Source of the DNA: Vallitalea guaymasensis
Lineage (GTDB): Bacteria > Bacillota > Clostridia > Lachnospirales > Vallitaleaceae
DNA length: 64,000 nucleotides
Assembly: GCF_018141425.1 (NCBI RefSeq)
Contig: NZ_CP058561.1
Coordinates: 496,001-560,000, forward strand
Direction: 5' to 3'
Each line of letters opens with the position of its first letter. The stretch's first letter is position 1. The translations under genes were made by a program, and so were the position numbers. Shown here one piece after another: positions 4,611 through 14,385 of this stretch. The notes below the pieces were generated by a model. It was not told the origin of the DNA, searched no databases, and was given only the letters and a program-made list of their open reading frames with translations.

Positions 4611-4856
4611 ATGAGAGATATGTACAACTCAAAAAGACCTGTTTTTCTGGAACGCCCTAATAGGATGCAACCTCAAGTAAGACCAGATAAAGATAAGAAT
4701 GAATCTATGAAACAACCAGAACCCGAGATTAGATTGGCAACAGCTTATATCCCTAATCAGCCTTATGTGGGACTAGTCCCTCTACAAGAAGGATTCCATA
4801 GAGGAAGTATGTTTCCTAATCTATATCAACCTTATCGTGATTGGAGGCGTCATTAA
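4611..4856 (+). CDS. cotJA: Spore coat protein CotJA
   Basis: The 81-residue product has the CotJA pattern: a Pro-rich, basic N-terminal half, then LATAYIPNQPYVG, and an aromatic ending (LYQPYRDW). In Bacillus subtilis CotJA, CotJB and CotJC are co-transcribed in the mother cell under sigma-E and enter the inner coat. Here the gene is first of three, with a TAAGGAG site before the ATG. Its stop overlaps the cotJB start (TAATG). The unique feature of this copy of the operon is that the third gene is interrupted. Confidence 0.9.
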   Translation: MRDMYNSKRPVFLERPNRMQPQVRPDKDKNESMKQPEPEIRLATAYIPNQPYVGLVPLQEGFHRGSMFPNLYQPYRDWRRH

Positions 4857-5104
4857 TGTATGATAAAAAATTAATGAGAGAAATACAACAATTAGGATTT
4901 GCTGCCTTAGACCTTAATCTATATCTAGATACTCATCCCGATTGTAAAAAAGCAATTTCGGATTATAATGTTATACAACGTCAATATGAGAACAAGAGAC
5001 GTATGTATGAGTTAAATGTGGGTCCACTTGTTAACTTTGGTATGTCTCCAAGCAAATATCCATGGGAATGGTTAGATGGACCATGGCCATGGGAAAATGA
5101 ATAA
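4856..5104 (+). CDS. cotJB: Spore coat protein CotJB
   Basis: The 82-residue product matches CotJB: MREIQQLGFAALDLNLYLDT near the start, a central DYNVIQRQYENKRRMYE helix and an aromatic end (YPWEWLDGPWPW). I chose the ATG at 4856 because GGAGG (4843-4847) lies eight bases upstream; an in-frame TTG at 4841 would overlap that site. The start overlaps the cotJA stop by one base, showing translational coupling. CotJB is thought to act with CotJA and CotJC in coat assembly; its molecular role is not known. Confidence 0.9.
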   Translation: MYDKKLMREIQQLGFAALDLNLYLDTHPDCKKAISDYNVIQRQYENKRRMYELNVGPLVNFGMSPSKYPWEWLDGPWPWENE

Positions 5105-5117
5105 AGGAGGATAAAGT

Positions 5118-5330
5118 ATGTGGTTATATGAAAAAAGATTACAATTTCCTGTTAATATCAAAAAGAAAGATCTAAGAATGGCAGGGTTGCTCGTTACCCA
5201 GTATGGAGGACCTGACGGTGAATTAGGTGCTGCTATTCGTTATCTTAATCAGAGATATGCTATGCCTACCAATAAGACTAAAGGGTTGTTGACGGATATT
5301 GGAACTGAAGAATGGGTTCCATGGGGTTAG
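5118..5330 (+). CDS. cotJC: CotJC manganese-catalase-like coat protein, N-terminal part (interrupted gene)
   Basis: Residues 1-65 are normal CotJC: MWLYEKRLQFPVNIK, GGPDGELGAA with metal ligand Glu35, and LLTDIGTEE ending at Glu65. The frame then reads five foreign residues (WVPWG) and stops at 5328-5330, inside the intervening element. The complete family is about 190 residues. This fragment lacks three of the five manganese ligands and should be inactive. A good AAAGGAGG site precedes the ATG, 13 bases after cotJB. The missing 125 codons lie in frame at 14008-14385. I see no mutation inside the retained part, which argues against simple decay. Confidence 0.93.
   Translation: MWLYEKRLQFPVNIKKKDLRMAGLLVTQYGGPDGELGAAIRYLNQRYAMPTNKTKGLLTDIGTEEWVPWG
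5297..5327 (+). other. Left recombination site (attL) of the cotJC element
   Basis: The site reads TATTGGAACTGAAGAAT and then GGGTTCCATGGGGTT. The left half is cotJC and the right half is element end. TTGGAAC and AAGAAT are shared with the right junction. The likely central dinucleotide is GA at 5310-5311, which is not self-complementary and so would fix the direction of joining. Confidence 0.8.
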
Positions 5331-5344
5331 CCATTATTATTTAT

Positions 5345-5866
5345 TTACATAAGACATTTACTATCAACTTCTCGTGTTTTAACACCATTTTCATACCAAA
5401 TTAGCTGATAGCTTCCTATATCTTCCTTAACCCCTATTAATATGAATAAACCATATTTATAACCCAAATTGCTTAATACTTTAGTTGTAGCAGCTTTTAA
5501 TTTGACTTCATCTTGTTCTTGACTAGTTTTTTTAGAACAGCTTTTTTTTATTTCTATTATAACTAGATTTCTGTAGTTTTCTTCTCTTTGATGAATAATA
5601 ATATCTGGTATTATTTTTTTTGGCATTGATTTTTTTTCGCCATATTCACATTCTATTTCATATATTATTTTTTTATCTTCAATTGCTTTTGCATTACGAT
5701 CGTACTCGCAATCAATATTATATGAAGGAAAGTATTTTTCAATATATGTACCTAACTTATAGGAAATTGCTCGTTCATGAACATTATTTTTTAATAATAC
5801 ATGCTCCTTTTCCATTAATTCATTTAATGCTAATATTATGTATTTTTCTATAATTAATATATTCAT
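5345..5866 (-). CDS. PD-(D/E)xK nuclease-like hypothetical protein
   Basis: The first cargo gene encodes 173 residues. HERAISYKLGTYIEKYFPSY is followed by VDCEY-like DCEYDRN, then a PDIIIHQ segment and NLVIIEIKKS. That gives a PD...(E)xK arrangement typical of the PD-(D/E)xK nuclease fold. Similar orphan proteins occur in bacterial accessory regions and are often suspected of defence roles. I see no partner methylase or restriction subunit beside it, so activity is unproven. It is transcribed toward the left junction, opposite to cotJC, and ends 15 bases from the truncated cotJC stop. Very AT-rich. Confidence 0.6.
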   Translation of the reverse strand: MNILIIEKYIILALNELMEKEHVLLKNNVHERAISYKLGTYIEKYFPSYNIDCEYDRNAKAIEDKKIIYEIECEYGEKKSMPKKIIPDIIIHQREENYRNLVIIEIKKSCSKKTSQEQDEVKLKAATTKVLSNLGYKYGLFILIGVKEDIGSYQLIWYENGVKTREVDSKCLM

Positions 5867-5912
5867 ATATATATATACCTTTCTTATTTATTAATTTAAC
5901 TTACACACTTAT

Positions 5913-6407
5913 TTAAGTATAGCCAAAAAAGAAACAATACCAACAATCTTTCAATTTATCTTCAAGTGAAAATGTACTGTTATAGTTAATAATATCCTTT
6001 TCCGAATATACTATCCCCGTTTCATACGGAAACGGTCCAGTAGTATAATAATTAAAATATACTTCATCTCCATACTTTGAAATTTCTTTATAATCAAGAT
6101 TTTTCAATAGATACTTAATAGATTGAACTATTTGCTCATCCTCAATGTTTACTATTCTTATATTATATTCATTATCAATCTCTTTAATAATTAGTTTACT
6201 ATTTTCATAATAACAACTTGCATTATATTGTAAATTCATTAAAAACAAAGCTACCTCTTCGAAGTATAAACTATTTGCATAAAAGCAACCTTTAATAATT
6301 TGTTTTTCTGATAGGCTTGAGTCACTTATTTCAATTGTTTTATTTAAAATTACAACTATAATACTAACAATTACTATTGATATTTTTATAATTCTTTTCA
6401 TAGGCAA
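5913..6407 (-). CDS. Hypothetical membrane-anchored or secreted protein
   Basis: I do not recognise this 164-residue product. Residues 4-22 form one hydrophobic segment (IIKISIVIVSIIVVIL) after a basic start, so it is either a signal anchor or an uncleaved signal peptide. The rest is polar, rich in Tyr, Asn and Glu, with a Cys-containing, aromatic end (CWYCFFFGYT). It lies upstream of the nuclease-like gene on the same strand, 46 bases away, and may be in one transcript with it. Confidence 0.5.
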   Translation of the reverse strand: MPMKRIIKISIVIVSIIVVILNKTIEISDSSLSEKQIIKGCFYANSLYFEEVALFLMNLQYNASCYYENSKLIIKEIDNEYNIRIVNIEDEQIVQSIKYLLKNLDYKEISKYGDEVYFNYYTTGPFPYETGIVYSEKDIINYNSTFSLEDKLKDCWYCFFFGYT

Positions 6408-6521
6408 ATTCTCTTTCTGTACTTTATCTATTCATTAATCAATAGTCTCCTAACTATTACAATGCAATATTCAATAATTTTTAGCAAGGTCTTTTTCCAA
6501 AAACATAAATACGTATTAATA

Positions 6522-6556
6522 TTATCAGATAATTTAACAATAAGCAACAAAAAAGA
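6522..6556. repeat. 35-bp dispersed repeat, copy 1
   Basis: This matches 12761-12795 at 33 of 35 positions, in the same orientation. The shared core is TAACAATAAGCAACAAAAAA. Both copies lie near the 3' end of a minus-strand gene for a secreted protein inside the element. Here it overlaps the terminator T-tract. Confidence 0.75.
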
Positions 6557-6582
6557 CCTAACTTCAATTATTAAAGTAGGTC
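6550..6582 (-). terminator. Terminator of the fibronectin-III gene
   Basis: The stem GACCTAACTT / AAGTAGGTC, with a one-base bulge, lies at 6555-6582. It is followed on the minus strand by a run of six T. Confidence 0.65.
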
Positions 6583-6619
6583 GGGTCTTTACTTGTTATA
6601 AGTTTGTTCTAATTAATAT

Positions 6620-7621
6620 TTATTGTTTTATGTATTCTTTAACTTTAAACCAAACTATTTTATTATATATCAAATACTCATTTGCATCTGTATAAGGTTC
6701 AATTTCTGATTCAGCAGCAAATTTATAGAATGGTAATCCATTATCGTTTGATCTATCTATATACCACTTAATAAAATTTTCAGCCTCGTTCATTGTTACT
6801 CTAAATTCATATATATCAGTAGTTGATAATTTAATTTGTAACACTGCTGGATTCACCTTTTTAATCATAGCTGATGCAATATTTGAATCAGTGCTTTCTA
6901 CGCTATTCTTTACTGCACGTACTATATAATAATAAGTAATTCCTGGCTCTACATCACTATCTATGTAAGTTGTTTCTTCACTACTCCCTATTATAGTATC
7001 TATTGCATCTAATGTAGTCGACCTTAGTATAGTATAGTTATCTGCACCTTCTACTGCATCCCAATTTAGAGTTATATTATAATCAGATGATTGAGCAGTC
7101 AAATTAGTTGGAGCCTCAATTTGTATTGGTGATTCATCATATCCTTTTAATTCTCCATTTTCATCCATATCTATATAATCCAATGAAACATGATGAGCAC
7201 TATCAGCTGTAGTAGTGTCAATTACAACTGCATGTTCAACATTAGCTAAATTCTTAATTTCAAACATTATGACTGGTGTATATTCTGGCATAGAATCTTT
7301 ATTATCTGTTTGGTATTTTATACCGTCTATTGTAACAGAAAGATTTTTTGAAGAGTAACTACTTAATCTTCTAATCAATCTTAATTCAGTTCCCACAAAA
7401 TTAAATTTAATAAAATTAGTAGTTTTATATGAATAATATTGACCACCCCAGTCACCTTCATATGTAATTCTGTTATCTGCAATTCCTTCCTTAACAACTT
7501 CATATCTTTTCCAACCATTTTCTGGCTGTTGTAATTCATCCCCTGCTGTGGCAGCATTAACAATTACATTACTAAAAATAAATAACACAAAAAATATAAA
7601 CATACTTAGTCTTTTTTTCAT
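6620..7621 (-). CDS. Secreted fibronectin type III domain protein
   Basis: The 333-residue protein opens with a classical signal peptide (MKKRLSMFIFFVLFIFSNVIVNA, cleavage near residue 24). Residues about 30-160 form an all-beta region containing ITYEGDWGG and FVGTELRLI, resembling the jelly-roll modules that precede Fn3 domains in clostridial surface proteins. Residues about 170-255 are a clear Fn3 domain (APTNLTAQSSDYNITLNWDA, YYYIVRAV). The last 70 residues are an unrecognised domain (FIKWYIDRSNDNGLPFY). No sortase or S-layer motif is present. Probably released or loosely cell-associated. The role as cargo of a sporulation element is unclear. Confidence 0.7.
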   Translation of the reverse strand: MKKRLSMFIFFVLFIFSNVIVNAATAGDELQQPENGWKRYEVVKEGIADNRITYEGDWGGQYYSYKTTNFIKFNFVGTELRLIRRLSSYSSKNLSVTIDGIKYQTDNKDSMPEYTPVIMFEIKNLANVEHAVVIDTTTADSAHHVSLDYIDMDENGELKGYDESPIQIEAPTNLTAQSSDYNITLNWDAVEGADNYTILRSTTLDAIDTIIGSSEETTYIDSDVEPGITYYYIVRAVKNSVESTDSNIASAMIKKVNPAVLQIKLSTTDIYEFRVTMNEAENFIKWYIDRSNDNGLPFYKFAAESEIEPYTDANEYLIYNKIVWFKVKEYIKQ

Positions 7622-7824
7622 TATACATCATCCTTTTCTATTAATTATGCCAAATTATACCATAATACATATTCAATATATAGCCTTATAATTAGTATTA
7701 TTAGGTAGTACAATAAAATGTTATAGTTCTTGCTACAACTTTTGTGTTATTAATTTTCTATCTCTTTACAATTATAGTTTTTTAATAAGAGAGCTATGGA
7801 AATTATAAATCCTAAAATCTCTTC

Positions 7825-8700
7825 TCAAACTTCAGCAAAAGCCATTCGTTCAATTGGCATAATAGAAATCTCTCTTCCGATTGGTTTAAAATATCGTTCT
7901 CTATATTCTATATCACCAACATCTTCAATCAATTTAAGACCATGTTCCTTTAGAAACTCTGATATATTATTTGGTTCAAATCCTGTAATCCATTCTTCGC
8001 CTATTCTTTTACCTAGTTTTAACATTTTACTATACTCTGGAAAGTTTATAGGGGATGTTAATACACTTTTGATTACATACGTAAATGTAACTTGACTACC
8101 TTTTGAGCATGATGCGATGAATTCCAGAGTTCCAATAACTGCTTCAATCGTAATATATTGTGTAACACCTTCCCAAAGAAACAGTGTTCTATTATCTTTA
8201 CTATAACCAGCCTTAACAAGCTCATCTTCAAGTCTTTGCGTATCAAAATCAATAGGTACAAACCTAACATATGAAGGGATACCACATTGTAATCCAGACA
8301 TTATTTTTTCATAATTGGTTATAACAGATTTCTGGTCAACGTGGTAATATTCCAATCCTTTCATATCAAATCTTAGACACTTGGTGTCATAACCCCCACC
8401 CAAGTTGACAATAGCATCAAATTTATTTGCAATAGCAGTCTCCAATGCATCATCCATATACTTCGTTCGACTAATAATACCACCATAGACACCAGGACCA
8501 GTCTTATCCATAAAATTTACCATCCAATTCCTAATGCATTTGGGCTTCATGATTTTAAGGAAGAATCTATTAAAAGCAGTAATAAACTTTATTGAATATT
8601 GATCATCATATAATCTCTCGTTTTTTAGAAACATCATTTCCATGGCTCTAATCATTGCAGCCTTTTCTGAAGTTGTTATACTTTTCATTGATTTAATCAT
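7825..8700 (-). CDS. LCM-type SAM-dependent methyltransferase
   Basis: The 291-residue protein fits the leucine carboxyl methyltransferase-like family (PF04072, TIGR00027 type). The SAM-binding glycine loop is VNLGGGYDTKCLRF near residues 98-112, followed by an acidic strand end (YYHVDQKSV) and the family motif FLWEGVTQYI near 175. Members methylate carboxyl or hydroxyl groups of small molecules or peptides; the substrate cannot be read here. It is a stand-alone cargo gene with about 200 bases to its downstream neighbour. Confidence 0.8.
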   Translation of the reverse strand: MIKSMKSITTSEKAAMIRAMEMMFLKNERLYDDQYSIKFITAFNRFFLKIMKPKCIRNWMVNFMDKTGPGVYGGIISRTKYMDDALETAIANKFDAIVNLGGGYDTKCLRFDMKGLEYYHVDQKSVITNYEKIMSGLQCGIPSYVRFVPIDFDTQRLEDELVKAGYSKDNRTLFLWEGVTQYITIEAVIGTLEFIASCSKGSQVTFTYVIKSVLTSPINFPEYSKMLKLGKRIGEEWITGFEPNNISEFLKEHGLKLIEDVGDIEYRERYFKPIGREISIMPIERMAFAEV

Positions 8701-8828
8701 CCTTTCTATATACTATATTGAGTACAAATGCTCCTACCTTATTATACTTCATATATTAATTCATTAGTAACTTAAGAATTTTATGATGAATAATATATAT
8801 TAAGCAACTGTAATAAAGGACTGTATCT

Positions 8829-9128
8829 ATGTATATTTATGAAAATAATTCTACAAATAATTCTTACCAAGGATGTCGTGTAATTACTGTTGATGACATA
8901 GAATCTAATGAAGATAACCTACTTAACACTTGGGTTATTATAAAATTACTTAATAATAGCTTCTACCAAATGTATATAACCGAAATAAATGATTATGGGG
9001 TTGGTGGTACACTATATTTAGGATCAGTACCAGACGATACTCCTCCATCATATTCATTATCAATCAAAGCAGATACTTTTTTCCTATACGATTATATTGA
9101 AAACATGATTCTTGAAAATTCTTATTAA
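8829..9128 (+). CDS. Hypothetical 99-residue protein
   Basis: I do not recognise this product. It is acidic and rich in Asn, Tyr and Asp, with alternating beta-like segments (LNTWVIIKLLNNSFYQMYI, GGTLYLGSV, TFFLYDYIENMI) and no signal or membrane segment. It could be a small beta-barrel binding protein. It is the plus-strand gene immediately upstream of the recombinase region, ends at its own terminator (9157-9187), and so is probably transcribed alone. A role in recombination control is possible but unsupported. Confidence 0.5.
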   Translation: MYIYENNSTNNSYQGCRVITVDDIESNEDNLLNTWVIIKLLNNSFYQMYITEINDYGVGGTLYLGSVPDDTPPSYSLSIKADTFFLYDYIENMILENSY

Positions 9129-9156
9129 CTACTTATAATTTAATAATCTCATAATT

Positions 9157-9187
9157 AACCTCACATTTGTTGAGGTTTTATTTTATG
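9157..9187 (+). terminator. Terminator of the 99-residue gene
   Basis: Arms AACCTCA (9157-9163) and TGAGGTT (9171-9177) are followed by TTATTTTA. Confidence 0.7.
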
Positions 9188-9205
9188 TATGCTCTATAAA
9201 TACTC

Positions 9206-9379
9206 TTATTCTACCTTATTCTGTTCCCGTATATAATGATTTAGAATAATGGTACTTATGTTGTCAAGAATTTTTTGAATATCTTCAGGAGTCCTATTAA
9301 TGTATCCACTATCTCTTATTTGAACTTTGGTATTGCCAATTTTATATTCTTCAACAATGTTACCTTCTAATTCAATCAT
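9206..9379 (-). CDS. Small protein next to the recombinase, candidate directionality factor
   Basis: A 57-codon gene starts with ATG at 9379-9377, nine bases after a strong AGGAGG. It reads MIELEGNIVEEYKIGNTKVQ and continues RDSGYINRTPEDIQKILDNI. Small proteins with the pattern YKIGNT...TPEDIQ.IL..I are commonly encoded beside serine recombinases on clostridial prophages and integrative elements. Recombination directionality factors such as SprB of the SPbeta system are of similar size and position, so that role is my inference. It is divergent from the recombinase with 198 bases between. Confidence 0.65.
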   Translation of the reverse strand: MIELEGNIVEEYKIGNTKVQIRDSGYINRTPEDIQKILDNISTIILNHYIREQNKVE

Positions 9380-9448
9380 ACATAATACCTCCTTTTATCT
9401 TATAATTTATGCTAGCTAATTTTTGTCCTATTACTTCACGCCACTTCA

Positions 9449-9477
9449 GACATTAAATTTCTTTATAACATAAAGTT
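9449..9477 (+). promoter_or_regulatory. Candidate sigma-K-like promoter for the recombinase
   Basis: GACA at 9449-9452 is followed after 16 bases by CATAAAGTT at 9469-9477. The sigma-K consensus is mACm, 16 bases, CATAnnnTA, so only the last base differs. The start would lie about 95 bases before the recombinase ATG. No TTGACA/TATAAT pair with correct spacing is obvious. In AT-rich DNA such matches occur by chance, so this is tentative. Confidence 0.3.
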
Positions 9478-9577
9478 TATTTTACAATAGCTGCATATAA
9501 ATATAATTGCTGTAATAGATATAAATAGAAATTATATAATCCTCCTAAGAGCTAAAATTAAAAATGAAGGTGTTTGT

Positions 9578-11173
9578 ATGTCAGCTGAATATTGTATCTA
9601 CCTTAGAAAATCCCGTTCAGATATGGAAGCAGAAGCACATGGAGAAGGAGAAACTCTAGCTAGGCATGAAAAAATATTATTGGATTTATCTAAAAACAGG
9701 AATCTAGATGTTACTAAAATTTATAAAGAGATTGTATCTGGAGAAACTATATCTTCCCGTCCAGTTATTCAACAGGTTCTATCAGAAGTAGAACAAGGCA
9801 TTTGGTCTGGTGTTCTTGTTGTTGAAGTTGAACGTTTAGCACGTGGTGATACTATTGACCAAGGAATAGTTGCTCAAAGTTTTAAATTCTCTAATACTAA
9901 AATAATAACCCCTATGAAAGACTATGACCCCAAAAATGAATTTGATGAAGAGTACTTTGAATTCGGTCTATTCATGTCACGACGTGAATATAAAACAATA
10001 AATAGACGTTTACAAAGGGGCAGAATAGAGTCTGTTAAAGAAGGAAAATATTTAGGAAATAAACCTCCCTATGGATATATGAGAAAAAAATTAGAAAATG
10101 ATAAAGGTTATACCTTAGAAATAAATCATGAACAAGCTAAGGCTGTAAAATTAATTTTCATCCTATATACAAAAGGTGAATCGCACTCCGATGGAACTTC
10201 CGATAAATTCGGATTAACACTTATAGCCAATAAATTAAATGAATTAAAAATTTCACCGGTAAAAAGTAAAATATGGGTAGAATCTTCAATAAGGGATATT
10301 CTCAAAAACCCTGTATACATAGGTAAAATACGATGGAATTCACGTCCTACAGTCAAAAGAATGGTTGATGGTAAAATTGTTAAATCAAGACCTAGAACCA
10401 AAAAAGAAGATTGGATTCTAGTTAATGGATTACACGAACCAATAATCGATAACACTACATTTGAACTTGCACAAAAGCGTTTATCTGAAAACTCTAAGGC
10501 TCCTATTCCCAGTAAATATAATATAAAAAATCCTTTAGCTGGAATAGCTATCTGTGGTATGTGTGGAAGAAAAATGGTTAGAAGGTCTTATACCAACAGC
10601 ACTCCTGATTATTTGATATGTAAAATTTCATCATGCAATAATATTAGTTGTGAATTATCTGTTGTTGAGGAAAAACTAATTGAATGTCTAAGAACATGGT
10701 TAATAAATTATAAGTTGGATATAAAATCATCAAAACATGATAAAAGCAATTTAAATTTACAACATGAAATTACTGAAAAATCTATTAAGAAATTAGATGA
10801 AGAATTAATGACATTAATAAAGCAATCTGATACTTTACATGATTTACTTGAACAAGGTGTTTACTCAGTTGATAAATTTCTTGAAAGATCTAAAATAATT
10901 ACTGATAAAATAAGCGAAGTAAAAAACACTAAAAACGAATTGTTAGATGTACTTAACCAAAATACTGTACATAATAAAAATCAAGTGACTTTAATCCCCA
11001 AAATTGAACGAATATTAGAGACATACGGTAATCTTACAAATCCTGCTGAAAAGAATGAATTACTCAAAGAAGTTATTGATAAAGTTGTTTATACCAAGAC
11101 AGTCAACGGTCGTTGGCATGGAAACCCCGATGATTTCAACCTTGTACTATATCCAAAGCTACCAAAAAAATAA
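9578..11173 (+). CDS. Large serine recombinase of the cotJC element (SpoIVCA-like)
   Basis: The 531-residue protein has a resolvase catalytic domain at about 5-150. YLRKSRSD places the nucleophile at Ser12, and VEVERLARGD holds active-site Arg residues. A recombinase domain spans about 155-285 (GNKPPYGYM), a zinc ribbon about 320-365 (CGMCGRKM plus two later Cys) and a coiled coil about 385-470. This is the layout of phage integrases and of SpoIVCA, which excises skin from sigK. It is slightly longer than SpoIVCA (about 500). It is the only recombinase in the element and points in the cotJC direction. The gene ends in a strong terminator. Confidence 0.93.
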   Translation: MSAEYCIYLRKSRSDMEAEAHGEGETLARHEKILLDLSKNRNLDVTKIYKEIVSGETISSRPVIQQVLSEVEQGIWSGVLVVEVERLARGDTIDQGIVAQSFKFSNTKIITPMKDYDPKNEFDEEYFEFGLFMSRREYKTINRRLQRGRIESVKEGKYLGNKPPYGYMRKKLENDKGYTLEINHEQAKAVKLIFILYTKGESHSDGTSDKFGLTLIANKLNELKISPVKSKIWVESSIRDILKNPVYIGKIRWNSRPTVKRMVDGKIVKSRPRTKKEDWILVNGLHEPIIDNTTFELAQKRLSENSKAPIPSKYNIKNPLAGIAICGMCGRKMVRRSYTNSTPDYLICKISSCNNISCELSVVEEKLIECLRTWLINYKLDIKSSKHDKSNLNLQHEITEKSIKKLDEELMTLIKQSDTLHDLLEQGVYSVDKFLERSKIITDKISEVKNTKNELLDVLNQNTVHNKNQVTLIPKIERILETYGNLTNPAEKNELLKEVIDKVVYTKTVNGRWHGNPDDFNLVLYPKLPKK

Positions 11174-11217
11174 TAAGCCATCATTATGTATCAAATACTG
11201 ATGGCTTATTATTTTAT
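11172..11217 (+). terminator. Terminator of the recombinase gene
   Basis: A perfect 12-bp stem, AATAAGCCATCA (11172-11183) with TGATGGCTTATT (11199-11210), starts at the stop codon and is followed by ATTTTATT. Confidence 0.85.
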
Positions 11218-11226
11218 TAACAATTA

Positions 11227-11463
11227 TCATCCTAATTTCTTATCAGCTCGTAACCTTTTAATGAATTCAGTTAAAGCATCATTTTCATTATCATATATAG
11301 CTTCTGATATTTTACATGTTCTTTCATCAGCAGTAAAAACACTCCAACTGTTTTCTGTTTTGCTTATACTTACCTCATATGGATAAACTTCATGGTTACC
11401 AAACCAATTGTAGTGTTTTAAATTTTCATTCTCAATAATTTTTCTTGCATCACTTTTATTCAT
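11227..11463 (-). CDS. Imm59-like small protein
   Basis: The 78-residue product MNKSDARKIIENENLKHYNW, followed by a VSISKTENSWSVFTADER segment and YDNENDALTEFIKRLR, resembles the Imm59 immunity-protein family of contact-dependent toxin systems. The call is from memory of the family pattern. I see no matching polymorphic toxin within the element, so it would be an orphan immunity gene or have another function. It is convergent with the recombinase gene and 24 bases downstream of the next minus-strand gene, with which it is probably co-transcribed. Confidence 0.5.
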   Translation of the reverse strand: MNKSDARKIIENENLKHYNWFGNHEVYPYEVSISKTENSWSVFTADERTCKISEAIYDNENDALTEFIKRLRADKKLG

Positions 11464-11487
11464 TTTTCACCTAATCTTTCTATTTTA

Positions 11488-12102
11488 TTAATAGCAAACT
11501 GTATTGGTAAAACGAGACATATTAATCATTTCTCTTAGCTCTCTAACAGGTATATTTTTACCTTCTAGTCGATAATCTTCAATTGCTTTAAACTTATTAT
11601 ATGTATCATCTTCCAATTCAAAAATATCTATAAACCATACTATATCAATCCAGTCATGGAATACTGAAATATTGATATTATTATCTATAACTCCTCTAAT
11701 TTTATTATCTAAGATTCTATTCTCTACTAGTATCGGTTTTATTGTAAAATATTCTATAAGTGCAGCATTAAGATAATCTAATAAAACTCCTCTTTTTATA
11801 TCATTGCTTAGAAAATCTTTAAGAAACTTGTCAGCTTCATAAATTGAATTATCATCAAGTAGTCTATTTTTACCTTCTTTTATTTTCTTAATATTGTTTC
11901 GAATAATTAAAATATTTATTATTGAGAAAGGTACAAAAATATATAATGGTTCTAGTTGTCTGCACAAGATACTAAGAGCAATCCCTATTCCTAGGGTAAA
12001 TATTAATGCAATGATACCAATTATTAAGTTAGAACGTCCCATTTTTATAATCTTTTTAGGTCCATCTCCATAATCTTTAATATATTTTTCTAGTCCAAAC
12101 AT
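11488..12102 (-). CDS. Hypothetical protein with two membrane helices
   Basis: I do not recognise this 204-residue protein. Two hydrophobic helices (about residues 25-48, IIGIIALIFTLGIGIALSIL, and 51-68) form a hairpin near the N-terminus, followed by a 135-residue polar, helix-rich cytosolic domain (LKDFLSNDIKRGVLLDYL, WIDIVWFIDIFELEDD). It lies between the Imm59-like gene and another two-helix membrane protein, all on the minus strand, so the three probably form one transcript. Confidence 0.5.
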   Translation of the reverse strand: MFGLEKYIKDYGDGPKKIIKMGRSNLIIGIIALIFTLGIGIALSILCRQLEPLYIFVPFSIINILIIRNNIKKIKEGKNRLLDDNSIYEADKFLKDFLSNDIKRGVLLDYLNAALIEYFTIKPILVENRILDNKIRGVIDNNINISVFHDWIDIVWFIDIFELEDDTYNKFKAIEDYRLEGKNIPVRELREMINMSRFTNTVCY

Positions 12103-12159
12103 AGTAACTTCTACTCCTCATAAAATGTGTTTTTATATGTAAATAGTTCTTTTTATTTT

Positions 12160-12666
12160 TTATTTAATCTTTCTATTATTTAATAAATGTTCTATAAGTG
12201 CTTTAACTTTTTTAGTCCTGTAGTTAAATCCAGCCATCATACCAAAATAATATACTAAGGTACCGATAATAAATCCTATTGGTTGTTCAATGGTTTTTGA
12301 CCCATTTATATATGATACAACTGATGTTATAGATTGGGTAAATAAAAATAAGAATACTAGCCAATATATGAAAGGATAATAAAACTTTAAATATATTTTA
12401 CTAATCTTTCCCTCTTTAACTATATTACCTCTATAAACTATTGATGATGGATCTCCTTTTAAATATTTATATCTTTTTAATTTAAATCCTTTTTCATTTA
12501 CATATCCAGAGTACTCTTCTTTTGAAAAGAAATCTATTGATGTATGTATTTGAATTTTATCAGTGTTTTCTTTTTTCTTTATCAATTTTTCAATCTTATA
12601 TTGTATTACACTTGGTCGTCGATCTGTACTAATACATCCTCTATATATTGGATAAAATTTAGTCAT
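12160..12666 (-). CDS. Hypothetical protein with two membrane helices
   Basis: I do not recognise this 168-residue product. The first 95 residues are basic and soluble (Lys/Arg/Tyr-rich). Two hydrophobic stretches follow (FYYPFIYWLVFLFLFTQSI near 95-113 and IGFIIGTLVYYFGMMAGF near 130-147), and the protein ends with a basic tail. This layout, soluble N-terminus plus C-terminal membrane hairpin, differs from its neighbour at 11488. It is the first gene of the probable three-gene minus-strand unit. Confidence 0.5.
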   Translation of the reverse strand: MTKFYPIYRGCISTDRRPSVIQYKIEKLIKKKENTDKIQIHTSIDFFSKEEYSGYVNEKGFKLKRYKYLKGDPSSIVYRGNIVKEGKISKIYLKFYYPFIYWLVFLFLFTQSITSVVSYINGSKTIEQPIGFIIGTLVYYFGMMAGFNYRTKKVKALIEHLLNNRKIK

Positions 12667-12760
12667 TTACATTTCTTCCTTTACATTACATTTTATTATA
12701 ATTATTGCACTAGCTTTATACAAATCACAAGCAATATCACCACATAGTTCCCGATATATA

Positions 12761-12795
12761 TTAACAGATAATCTAACAATAAGCAACAAAAAAGA
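12761..12795. repeat. 35-bp dispersed repeat, copy 2
   Basis: It matches 6522-6556 with two differences. It lies just past the terminator (12827-12849) of the secreted-protein gene at 12919-13599. Confidence 0.75.
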
Positions 12796-12819
12796 AATAT
12801 CAATTGTATTTATGTATAA

Positions 12820-12850
12820 ACTAAAAAGGACTGCCATATTAGCAGTCCTC
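12820..12850 (-). terminator. Terminator of the 226-residue secreted-protein gene
   Basis: Arms AGGACTGC (12827-12834) and GCAGTCCT (12842-12849) are followed on the minus strand by TTTTTAG. Confidence 0.8.
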
Positions 12851-12918
12851 TCATTAAACCCAAAGCTTGTATACTTTTAAACTCTATATTTAAATAATAC
12901 GAAATCTCTTAATCTATA

Positions 12919-13599
12919 TTAACCTAGAGGAATTAAGTTTAAAGGTTCGTTACCTTCTGAACCAGTTACAGCATCTCTAGTTCCGTCGCCTTCAGCTACT
13001 GTAGCATTTGTGTTGATTACTTTTAAAGTTGATCCATCTTTGAATTGGATTCTTGTTACTTCTACGAAACAATATGCTTCTGTAGGTATGTAGCTTAGAC
13101 CTCTAGCTTTGATAGTACCTGATAATTCATATTCTTGTTCAGTAATATCTTTAAGCTCTTTTAATATAGCTTTATCTTCTTCTTCACCTAGTAATACTTC
13201 TTTATTTCTTGCATTTGCAAAGTAATCACTAGAACCATCACCATAAACTACACTAACTAAACAATTGAAAAGATTTGCGCCCATACCTTCTGCTTCAAAT
13301 GAGCTATTCTCTGAAATCTCACTATATTGGTCAGCAGTAAGTTTGTCTTTATGTGTTTCTATAAATTCTACTAATTGATCTTGAGTTACAGTTTTAACAT
13401 TCATTTTAATGTTAATATCTGCTTCTGCTCCAGCTGTTAATCTTACTCCGGCTTTTCCAACATATCCAAAACCATTACTTATTTTAAAAGAATCGAACTC
13501 ATTATAATCTTCAGCAGCATAGCTTACCAACGAAAATGAGAATACCATTCCTAAAACTAACATACAACTTACCACTTTTTTTAATCCTTTTAATTTCAT
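12919..13599 (-). CDS. Secreted hypothetical protein
   Basis: The 226-residue product begins with a clear signal peptide (basic KLKGLKK, hydrophobic core SCMLVLGMVFSFSLVS, Ala-x-Ala site YAAE near residue 29). The mature part is acidic, with repeated beta-like stretches and no recognised domain. Glycine-rich DGSS/DGST pairs occur twice (VVYGDGSSDYF, IQFKDGSTLKV), suggesting two related beta modules. An AGGAGGTTACAGGT leader precedes the ATG. It appears to be driven by the strong promoter at 13808-13836, with a ten-codon reading frame in the leader. It lies nearest the right junction. Confidence 0.55.
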   Translation of the reverse strand: MKLKGLKKVVSCMLVLGMVFSFSLVSYAAEDYNEFDSFKISNGFGYVGKAGVRLTAGAEADINIKMNVKTVTQDQLVEFIETHKDKLTADQYSEISENSSFEAEGMGANLFNCLVSVVYGDGSSDYFANARNKEVLLGEEEDKAILKELKDITEQEYELSGTIKARGLSYIPTEAYCFVEVTRIQFKDGSTLKVINTNATVAEGDGTRDAVTGSEGNEPLNLIPLG

Positions 13600-13735
13600 A
13601 CCTGTAACCTCCTAATATTTTATCATATAGTTTATTAATATTTTTTCCTACATTTAGTTTTTTCCAATTGGCCAAAATCGTTAACTAAATTTATTTCTGT
13701 TAAATCAAATACTGTCTACACATTTTATACGCTAA

Positions 13736-13768
13736 TTAGTAATAATATGGAATGTTTACTTTTTTCAT
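13736..13768 (-). CDS. Possible 10-residue leader peptide
   Basis: ATG at 13768-13766 follows a perfect AAGGAGG site and reads MKKVNIPYYY before TAA. It lies 136 bases upstream of the secreted-protein gene and 39 bases downstream of a strong promoter. It may be a leader peptide, a short secreted or signalling peptide, or chance. Confidence 0.3.
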   Translation of the reverse strand: MKKVNIPYYY

Positions 13769-13807
13769 AATAATCCTCCTTATCTGTAATATAATTTTAC
13801 AAATCAT

Positions 13808-13836
13808 ATTATACAACTAATTGTCTAACTATTCAA
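13808..13836 (-). promoter_or_regulatory. Sigma-A-type promoter of the secreted-protein gene
   Basis: On the minus strand TTGAAT (13836-13831) and TATAAT (13813-13808) are separated by exactly 17 bases. I see no gene or clear signal in the remaining AT-rich stretch 13837-13984 up to the right junction. Confidence 0.65.
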
Positions 13837-13983
13837 CCCTTTTAATAATATTTTCTATAAATAAATTTAATTTTCATTTTAGTATAATTTATTGCAATTT
13901 TTGTACCAAAAACAAATATTAAATATATTTATCTATCAAATCTATCATAAGAAATAAAATAAGACAAAAAATTTTTCCAACAC

Positions 13984-14013
13984 CGATAACCTTTTGGAAC
14001 CTAAGAATTAGCC
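13984..14013 (+). other. Right recombination site (attR) of the cotJC element
   Basis: The element end reads CGATAACCTTTTGGAACC, followed by TAAGAAT and then cotJC sequence TAGCCCATG. It shares TTGGAAC and AAGAAT with the left site. The two element ends together form an inverted repeat: TAACCTTTTGGAACC on the right and GGTTCCATGGGGTTA on the left match at 12 of 15 positions around an 8-base centre. Confidence 0.8.
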
Positions 14014-14385
14014 CATGTAGAAATAATATCCGCAATGATCTACCAACTACTTAAAGGTGCAACAATCCAAGAATTGAAAGACGCCGGATTAGCTCCACAT
14101 TACGCCCAACACGATCATGGTCTGTTCCCAACTGATGCTAGCGGTGTTCCTTTCACTGTAGCAGGTATCGGCTCATTGGGTGATCCTGTCACTGACTTAC
14201 ACGAGGACCTTGCAGCTGAGCAAAAAGCTAGAGCGACTTATGAACACCTTATGAATCTCACTGATGATCCTGACCTAATTGAACCATTGAAATTCTTACG
14301 CCAAAGAGAAGTAATTCATTTCCAAAGATTTGGTGAAGCCCTTGATGACGTTCAGAATGAATTAAACAGAAAGAAATATTATTAA
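14008..14385 (+). CDS. cotJC: CotJC, C-terminal part (interrupted gene)
   Basis: These 125 codons complete CotJC. Read from TTA at 14008 they give LAHVEIISAMIYQLLKGATI and onward to QRFGEALDDVQNELNRKKYY. In the joined protein this supplies His68 of E-x-x-H, a Glu ligand near 136 (HEDLAAEQKARATYEH) and a His ligand near 169 (REVIHFQRF). An internal ATG at 14035 is the first in-frame start, but no Shine-Dalgarno precedes it, so separate translation is unlikely. The frame has no mutation and the joined length, 190 residues, equals the family norm. Intact coding of an unexpressed 3' fragment suggests that it is regularly rejoined. Confidence 0.93.
   Translation, partial: LAHVEIISAMIYQLLKGATIQELKDAGLAPHYAQHDHGLFPTDASGVPFTVAGIGSLGDPVTDLHEDLAAEQKARATYEHLMNLTDDPDLIEPLKFLRQREVIHFQRFGEALDDVQNELNRKKYY

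Follow-up and report, generated by a model that had tools for sequence, protein, structure and literature searches.

The stretch of DNA analysed here (the window) comprises 64,000 nucleotides of Vallitalea guaymasensis, positions 496,001 to 560,000 of the forward strand of NZ_CP058561.1, which is the one contig of assembly GCF_018141425.1 (5.63 Mb, 99.8% complete); coordinates below are those of the window. It holds a cotJ operon in which cotJC, the gene of the coat manganese catalase, is divided by an intervening element of 8,695 bp (5314-14008, forward strand). The operon starts with cotJA (4611-4856, forward; Pfam CotJA, 7.5e-11), followed by cotJB (4859-5104, forward; Pfam CotJB, 8.4e-30). 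The 5' part of cotJC (5118-5313, forward) consists of codons 1-65, ending at 5312, and one further base of a short core, AAGAAT, found at both ends of the element; its open frame continues past the core to a stop and spans 5118-5330. The 3' part (14003-14385, forward) runs from the core and codon 66, starting at 14008, to the stop codon. Both parts match successive stretches of the single Pfam Mn_catalase model, positions 1-66 (2.6e-18) and then 66-197 (4.7e-31), and joining them at AAGAAT gives a protein of 190 residues without stop or frameshift. An earlier note on this DNA had placed the break between these two codons and predicted a CotJC of normal length; the positions were found to be exact, and the rejoined frame was reproduced and is open throughout.

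The interruption sits at Glu65, within T63-E-E-L-A-H68, and joining restores E65-x-x-H68. In the manganese catalase of Lactobacillus plantarum the metal ligands are Glu35, Glu66, His69, Glu148 and His181; using this ligand set and an alignment to solved manganese catalases, the ligands of CotJC were assigned as Glu35, Glu65, His68, Glu136 and His169. As Glu65 is an assigned ligand lying at the break, the E-x-x-H motif is destroyed by the break, and the ligand alignment agrees with the earlier proposal that the motif is broken by the element and rebuilt by joining. Only the two fragments of cotJC were detected in the whole host genome, and no second or intact copy, which had been named beforehand as the observation that would speak against regular rejoining. 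Separate translation of the 3' half was rejected, because the junction has no start codon with a ribosome site. Like the intervening elements known from other sporulation genes, this one interrupts the reading frame of a gene of sporulation. The SpoIIID and sigma-K genes of the host are both intact, with sigK uninterrupted.

Attachment sites, empty site and recombinase

The left attachment site, attL (5290-5335, forward), consists of the core at 5308-5313 followed by the right arm of attP, GGGTTCCATGGGGTTAGCC, and attR (13980-14028, forward) consists of the left arm of attP, CCGATAACCTTTTGGAACCT, followed by the core at 14003-14008. The attP site reconstructed from the left arm of attR and the right arm of attL is CCGATAACCTTTTGGAACCTAA-GAATGGGTTCCATGGGGTTAGCC. 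It is dyad-symmetric (GGAACC-TAAGAATG-GGTTCC), with the inner dyad GGAACC/GGTTCC and a second, outer and less perfect dyad GATAAC/GTTA. A core of 6 bp on its own could arise by chance; the AAGAAT core is not regarded as such because attP is dyad-symmetric and the same architecture is common to most elements found at codon 65 in other genera. The attB site is the coding sequence for G-T-E-E-L-A-H. In a relative with cotJC in four pieces (G038), attL and attR agree around the crossover only in the GA of codon 65, suggesting that these two bases are the crossover dinucleotide.

The congener G005 has an uninterrupted cotJC, and a single blastn alignment crosses the junction at 95.5% identity, giving a precise empty site. 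The coding differences between the two cotJC genes are 17 synonymous and 1 non-synonymous. The short direct-repeat core is accompanied by precise reconstitution in frame, as seen from AAGAAT, the 190-residue product and the empty site of G005.

The element encodes its own site-specific enzyme, a large serine recombinase (LSR) of 531 residues (9578-11173, forward), which the earlier note had also recognised. It is intact, with the Pfam Resolvase, Recombinase and Zn_ribbon_recom domains and the catalytic serine region YLRKSRSD, and these features place it among the SPbeta/SprA-like integrases. It matches a PHROG integrase (2.6e-101), and its closest solved relative is SprA/YokA of SPbeta (1.7e-52).

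Recurrence of the split among relatives

A survey of 59 relatives showed an intact cotJC in three congeners and a split one in another congener, G004, as well as in several other families. The G004 element is minimal, with the cotJC halves 3.1 kb apart and mostly the LSR and a small gene between them. LSR orthologues with 47-62% identity abut codon 65 of cotJC. LSR loci were sought in about 85,000 species genomes and in viral contigs; of the best 80 genome loci, 57 had a cotJC half at the LSR orthologue (codon 65), as did 15 of 80 viral loci. Among the named isolates are Clostridium carboxidivorans P7, whose genome is complete and whose element measures 3.6 kb, Tissierella praeacuta DSM 18095, Alkaliphilus transvaalensis ATCC 700919, Clostridium methylpentosum DSM 5476, Anaerovorax odorimutans DSM 5092 and Paenibacillus lacisoli.

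In an order-level sample cotJC was in one piece in 133 genomes and in pieces in 83, which is about 38% of the classifiable genes; this share is approximate, since the census was classified by hand and leans on tblastn fragments and draft genomes. The breaks fall at codon ~33 (43), 62/65 (41), 131/136 (26) and 97 (1). Both sides of a break are on one contig in 32 genomes, two or three breaks occur in 21 genomes, and some genes are in three or four pieces. Relatives, which the earlier note had proposed to check for an intact gene and for the same break, provide both, the empty site in the close relative G005 and a widespread codon-65 split. The split stands exactly as that note described it, and it is widespread among relatives, not a single case.

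It is hardly credible that an artefact of assembly or of metagenome-assembled genomes lies behind this wider pattern. Many of the relatives are indeed drafts with the fragments on different contigs, but closed or single-contig cases are available (the host, G000, and G004, G046, G125, G231, G254 and G331), both halves share a contig in the 32 genomes above, and the breaks occur at a handful of positions only. For the one-contig cases an origin in assembly breaks is ruled out.

Fixed break positions and recombinase lineages

The codon-33 site has the core TAYGGYGG, about four codons before Glu35, the codon-65 site has GARGAA (Glu65) and the codon-136 site has GCAGCAGA (Glu136); by these cores, all three main sites lie at metal-ligand codons. 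The LSRs found at codon 33 and those at codon 136 each fall into a supported group of their own, apart from the codon-65 lineage, which also includes a few LSRs with other targets. In G038 an LSR lies beside the codon-31 junction and the codon-65 junction and another is close to the third, and the four pieces joined at the cores give one open frame. We consider it rather probable, from these comparisons, that cotJC is a general DNA-splicing gene of Clostridia on which at least three LSR lineages act, at Glu35, Glu65-x-x-His68 and Glu136, each with excision controlled in the mother cell. If this is true, the dying mother cell of some species must rid cotJC of two or three elements before the coat catalase is made.

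Several further arrangements were seen. Repeated 3' parts of cotJC (~63/99-190) lie kilobases apart on one strand in G100 (L130/L131), G200 (L132), G218 (L134) and G246 (L135), and several 3' copies (residues 59-190) lie likewise in G150 (L129); they may represent either serial accretion of elements or a cassette array giving alternative C-termini. In G254 (L113) cotJC is split at a further site, near codon 97-99, by a 14-kb element, and G385 (L109) has a 1.6-kb element with a truncated recombinase, possibly a fossil. LSRs of the same clade (L163, L188, L206) are located in asparagine-synthase-like genes and next to a YaaH-like GH18 gene of Anaerocolumna MB42-C2, which may be a further sporulation target; these gene names were read from the translated sequence.

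Selection on the split copies

The rejoined frame is open in 32 of 34 contiguous split cotJC loci; the join search tolerated a small offset, so this figure mainly shows that the halves are without stops or frameshifts. The two exceptions are G344, for which no cotJC join was found, and G009 (L039-L041, same family), where about 20 codons are lost after the junction and the gene is probably decaying, a possible fossil. In three congeneric species that share a codon-33 split with sister LSRs, the joined cotJC has a ratio of non-synonymous to synonymous divergence (dN/dS) of 0.024-0.043 at a dS of 0.9-2.0, and the synonymous divergence of their LSRs is of similar size. If the insertion is ancestral in that genus, cotJC would have been kept under strong purifying selection while split.

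These data bear on a different explanation, in which an ordinary mobile island or prophage relic uses a conserved attB within cotJC and simply inactivates a gene that the host can do without, excision being infrequent and not regulated. The open frames and the low dN/dS in species sharing the split argue against it, as do the genes in three or four pieces that still rebuild and a sporulation-type promoter (described below) that is present mainly where the element sits in cotJC. On the other hand, the decaying copy in G009 is in its favour, and so are the occurrence of the LSR clade in non-sporulation genes such as asnB-like ones, the defence- and island-like cargo, and the Clostridioides difficile cotCB and cotD mutants, which had less catalase activity and no significant coat defect (PMC11222575). 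Taken together, this explanation is considered unlikely.

A candidate directionality factor and its predicted promoter

A gene of 57 residues (9206-9379, reverse strand) is divergent from the LSR. An iterated profile search recovered 116 homologues in LSR loci, nearly all upstream of the LSR and on the opposite strand, and the protein is covered by no family of Pfam, PHROGs or NCBIfam. Its AlphaFold model, a beta-hairpin with a long helix, has a predicted local distance difference test (pLDDT) score of 82, and in a fold search against the PDB ranks 1-2, at a non-significant E of 4.1, were chains of the SPbeta complex of integrase and recombination directionality factor, 9dxd. The 57-residue protein is likely to be a recombination directionality factor.

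The predicted promoter of this gene (9408-9431, reverse) is of mother-cell type and consists of ATAGGACAA (SpoIIID/-35-like), N11 and CATAAATT (-10-like), the stretch closing with the first four bases of CATAAATT; in the window it reads AATAGGACAAAAATTAGCTAGCATAAATT, followed by AGGAGGT. We take GGACAA to fit the SpoIIID box and CATAAATT to fit the sigma-E -10 element. A generic sigma-E consensus scan gave weak enrichment only, and the specific ATAGGACAA motif emerged from unbiased hexamer counts, in which TAGGACAA was enriched upstream of the family genes, lying some 40-50 bases ahead of the start codon, with N11-12 and [CA]ATA after it. Upstream ATA[AG]GACA was present in 33 of 118 family members, compared with 4 of the 1,245 remaining genes of these loci (Fisher p 5e-33); elements in cotJC had the motif more often (26/50) than those in other places (4/27; p 0.0015), both p-values being uncorrected for relatedness of the loci. 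The motif suggests a promoter of sigma-E/SpoIIID type and hence expression in the mother cell. In the codon-33 elements of G125 and G290 a different small gene lies behind the same motif. One match of the pattern in the host genome, near 1.036 Mb, falls in a prophage repressor region and is not followed directly by a small gene.

Cargo of the element

The remaining genes of the element lie on both sides of the recombinase module. The first gene inside it (5345-5866, reverse) is nuclease-like and resembles the candidate anti-phage protein PD-Lambda-3_A (PADLOC, 2e-24). It is followed by a gene without match in Pfam, PHROGs or PADLOC (5913-6407, reverse), a secreted fn3 protein resembling phage proteins of unknown function (6620-7621, reverse; Pfam fn3, 4.5e-6; PHROG 10059, 4.9e-26), an S-adenosylmethionine-dependent methyltransferase (7825-8700, reverse; Pfam LCM, 5.7e-31; TIGR00027, 1.8e-47) and a 99-residue protein matching no Pfam or PHROGs family (8829-9128, forward). 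Beyond the LSR are an Imm59-like protein (11227-11463, reverse; Pfam, 5.1e-6), two probable membrane proteins of unknown role (11488-12102 and 12160-12666, both reverse) and a probable secreted protein, likewise of unknown role (12919-13599, reverse).

Pfam and PHROGs scans of the window element showed no capsid, terminase or replication gene families, and in these screens for structural and replication genes the similarity to phage proteins was limited to the one fn3 protein. By gene content, the window element is not a prophage. This has a bearing on the possibility that active phage-type elements are excised mainly on damage or infection and restore cotJC only incidentally, as in active lysogeny without developmental control. 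The pair of LSR and small gene does occur in phage contigs of IMG/VR, a related LSR is present in phage phiIBB_P123, and the elements also move between hosts, as G331 and G348 share LSRs with 85% identity and cotJC with 60%. The lack of structural and replication genes in the window element, the 3.1-kb size of the G004 element and a promoter motif indicating sigma-E/SpoIIID make such an origin very improbable. Elsewhere in the host genome, further serine recombinases were noticed near 1.036-1.090 Mb, in a prophage-like region, and a convergent pair at 4.863-4.867 Mb.

Comparison with known intervening elements

Intervening elements are known in sigK, spsM, spoVFB, gerE and yabG. In the skin element of C. 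difficile, the recombinase CD1231 is constitutive, and excision depends on the 72-residue CD1234, which is controlled by sigma-E and SpoIIID (PMC5025042). The window element resembles it in the mother-cell sporulation gene as target, the LSR with a small candidate factor, the predicted sigma-E/SpoIIID-type promoter and the exact rejoining. It differs in that its target is the coat catalase gene and not a sigma factor, and that its excision is a prediction; moreover, no database similarity was reported for CD1234 (PMC5025042), whereas the 57-residue protein belongs to a large family. SPbeta in spsM (SprA, SprB; PMC4191935) is alike in its late spore-surface target and in SprA/YokA being the nearest solved LSR; however, SPbeta is a full prophage and the window element an 8.7-kb island. 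A profile search against the PDB gave no sequence match of the 57-residue protein to SprB/YotN, the likeness to SprB being limited to the non-significant fold match.

The gin element in gerE of Bacillus cereus ATCC10987 (GirC, GirX; PMC5595907) is also a non-phage island with its own site-specific recombination system, with another target and three recombinases as against one. The yin element in yabG of Clostridium botulinum (PMC10747680) is similarly clostridial, interrupts a sporulation gene and encodes a serine recombinase together with a small putative directionality factor; its target is different, and the accessible part of that report mentions no recurrent targeting at several sites. 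In case of phi027 of C. difficile R20291 (PMC11222575), the prophage adjoins a CotJC-like manganese catalase gene, but this gene of 678 bp is situated past attR and is reported as a neighbour of the prophage, not as split. The accessible part of a 2012 comparison of Epulopiscium with Cellulosilyticum lentocellum gives cotJC as present in C. lentocellum and mentions no interruption. The author of the earlier note knew of no described cotJC case; none was found in the open-access literature searched, where absence is not proof, and the gene adjoining phi027 is the nearest.

Discussion

The window most probably contains a developmental, skin-like intervening element in cotJC that is excised in the mother cell, a view built on the split, the sites, the intact recombinase, the empty site, the recurrence, the selection and the promoter motif. 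This reading, already put forward in the earlier note, is strongly supported by the comparison with relatives (empty site, orthologous LSRs, 32 of 34 open rejoined frames, purifying selection), and the candidate directionality factor with its mother-cell-type promoter adds to the support.

In vegetative cells the element would lie within the Glu65 codon, with a dead stub of 70 residues as the sole possible product. During sporulation, sigma-E and SpoIIID would switch on the gene at 9206-9379 in the mother cell, and its product would act as directionality factor for the recombinase (9578-11173), which would then recombine attL with attR at AAGAAT, free an 8.7-kb circle and restore the 190-residue coat catalase. 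Because the mother cell dies, the element would be retained in the germ line of the spore. The excision step is modelled on the skin of C. difficile, where a small factor under sigma-E and SpoIIID provides the precedent.

Several points weigh against this reading. The insertion in the window species could be recent, in which case the intact halves there prove little, and the lost codons of G009 indicate that some split copies decay. The profile of the 57-residue family had only chance matches in the PDB, among them no known directionality factor, and the fold match to 9dxd is below significance (E 4.1). Across the host genome the promoter pattern has 3 matches against 5 for the reversed pattern, so that the pattern is weak evidence when taken by itself. 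Excision, the role of the 57-residue protein and its mother-cell expression are steps that we infer.

Rebuilding of cotJC by DNA removal is probably a routine and previously unreported step of sporulation, in genomes where the annotation of two cotJC pseudogenes would be wrong. So far, a handful of genes are known to be rebuilt in a programmed way during sporulation. If the proposal is true, DNA-level splicing of cotJC would be among the commonest developmental rearrangements in bacteria, with dozens of natural replicates, in a gene interrupted by several distinct recombinase lineages and up to three times in one copy. It would further provide a large family of candidate directionality factors together with their serine integrases, useful as tools for genome engineering. 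It also suggests a testable rule, that elements persist in late mother-cell genes because excision there costs the germ line nothing.

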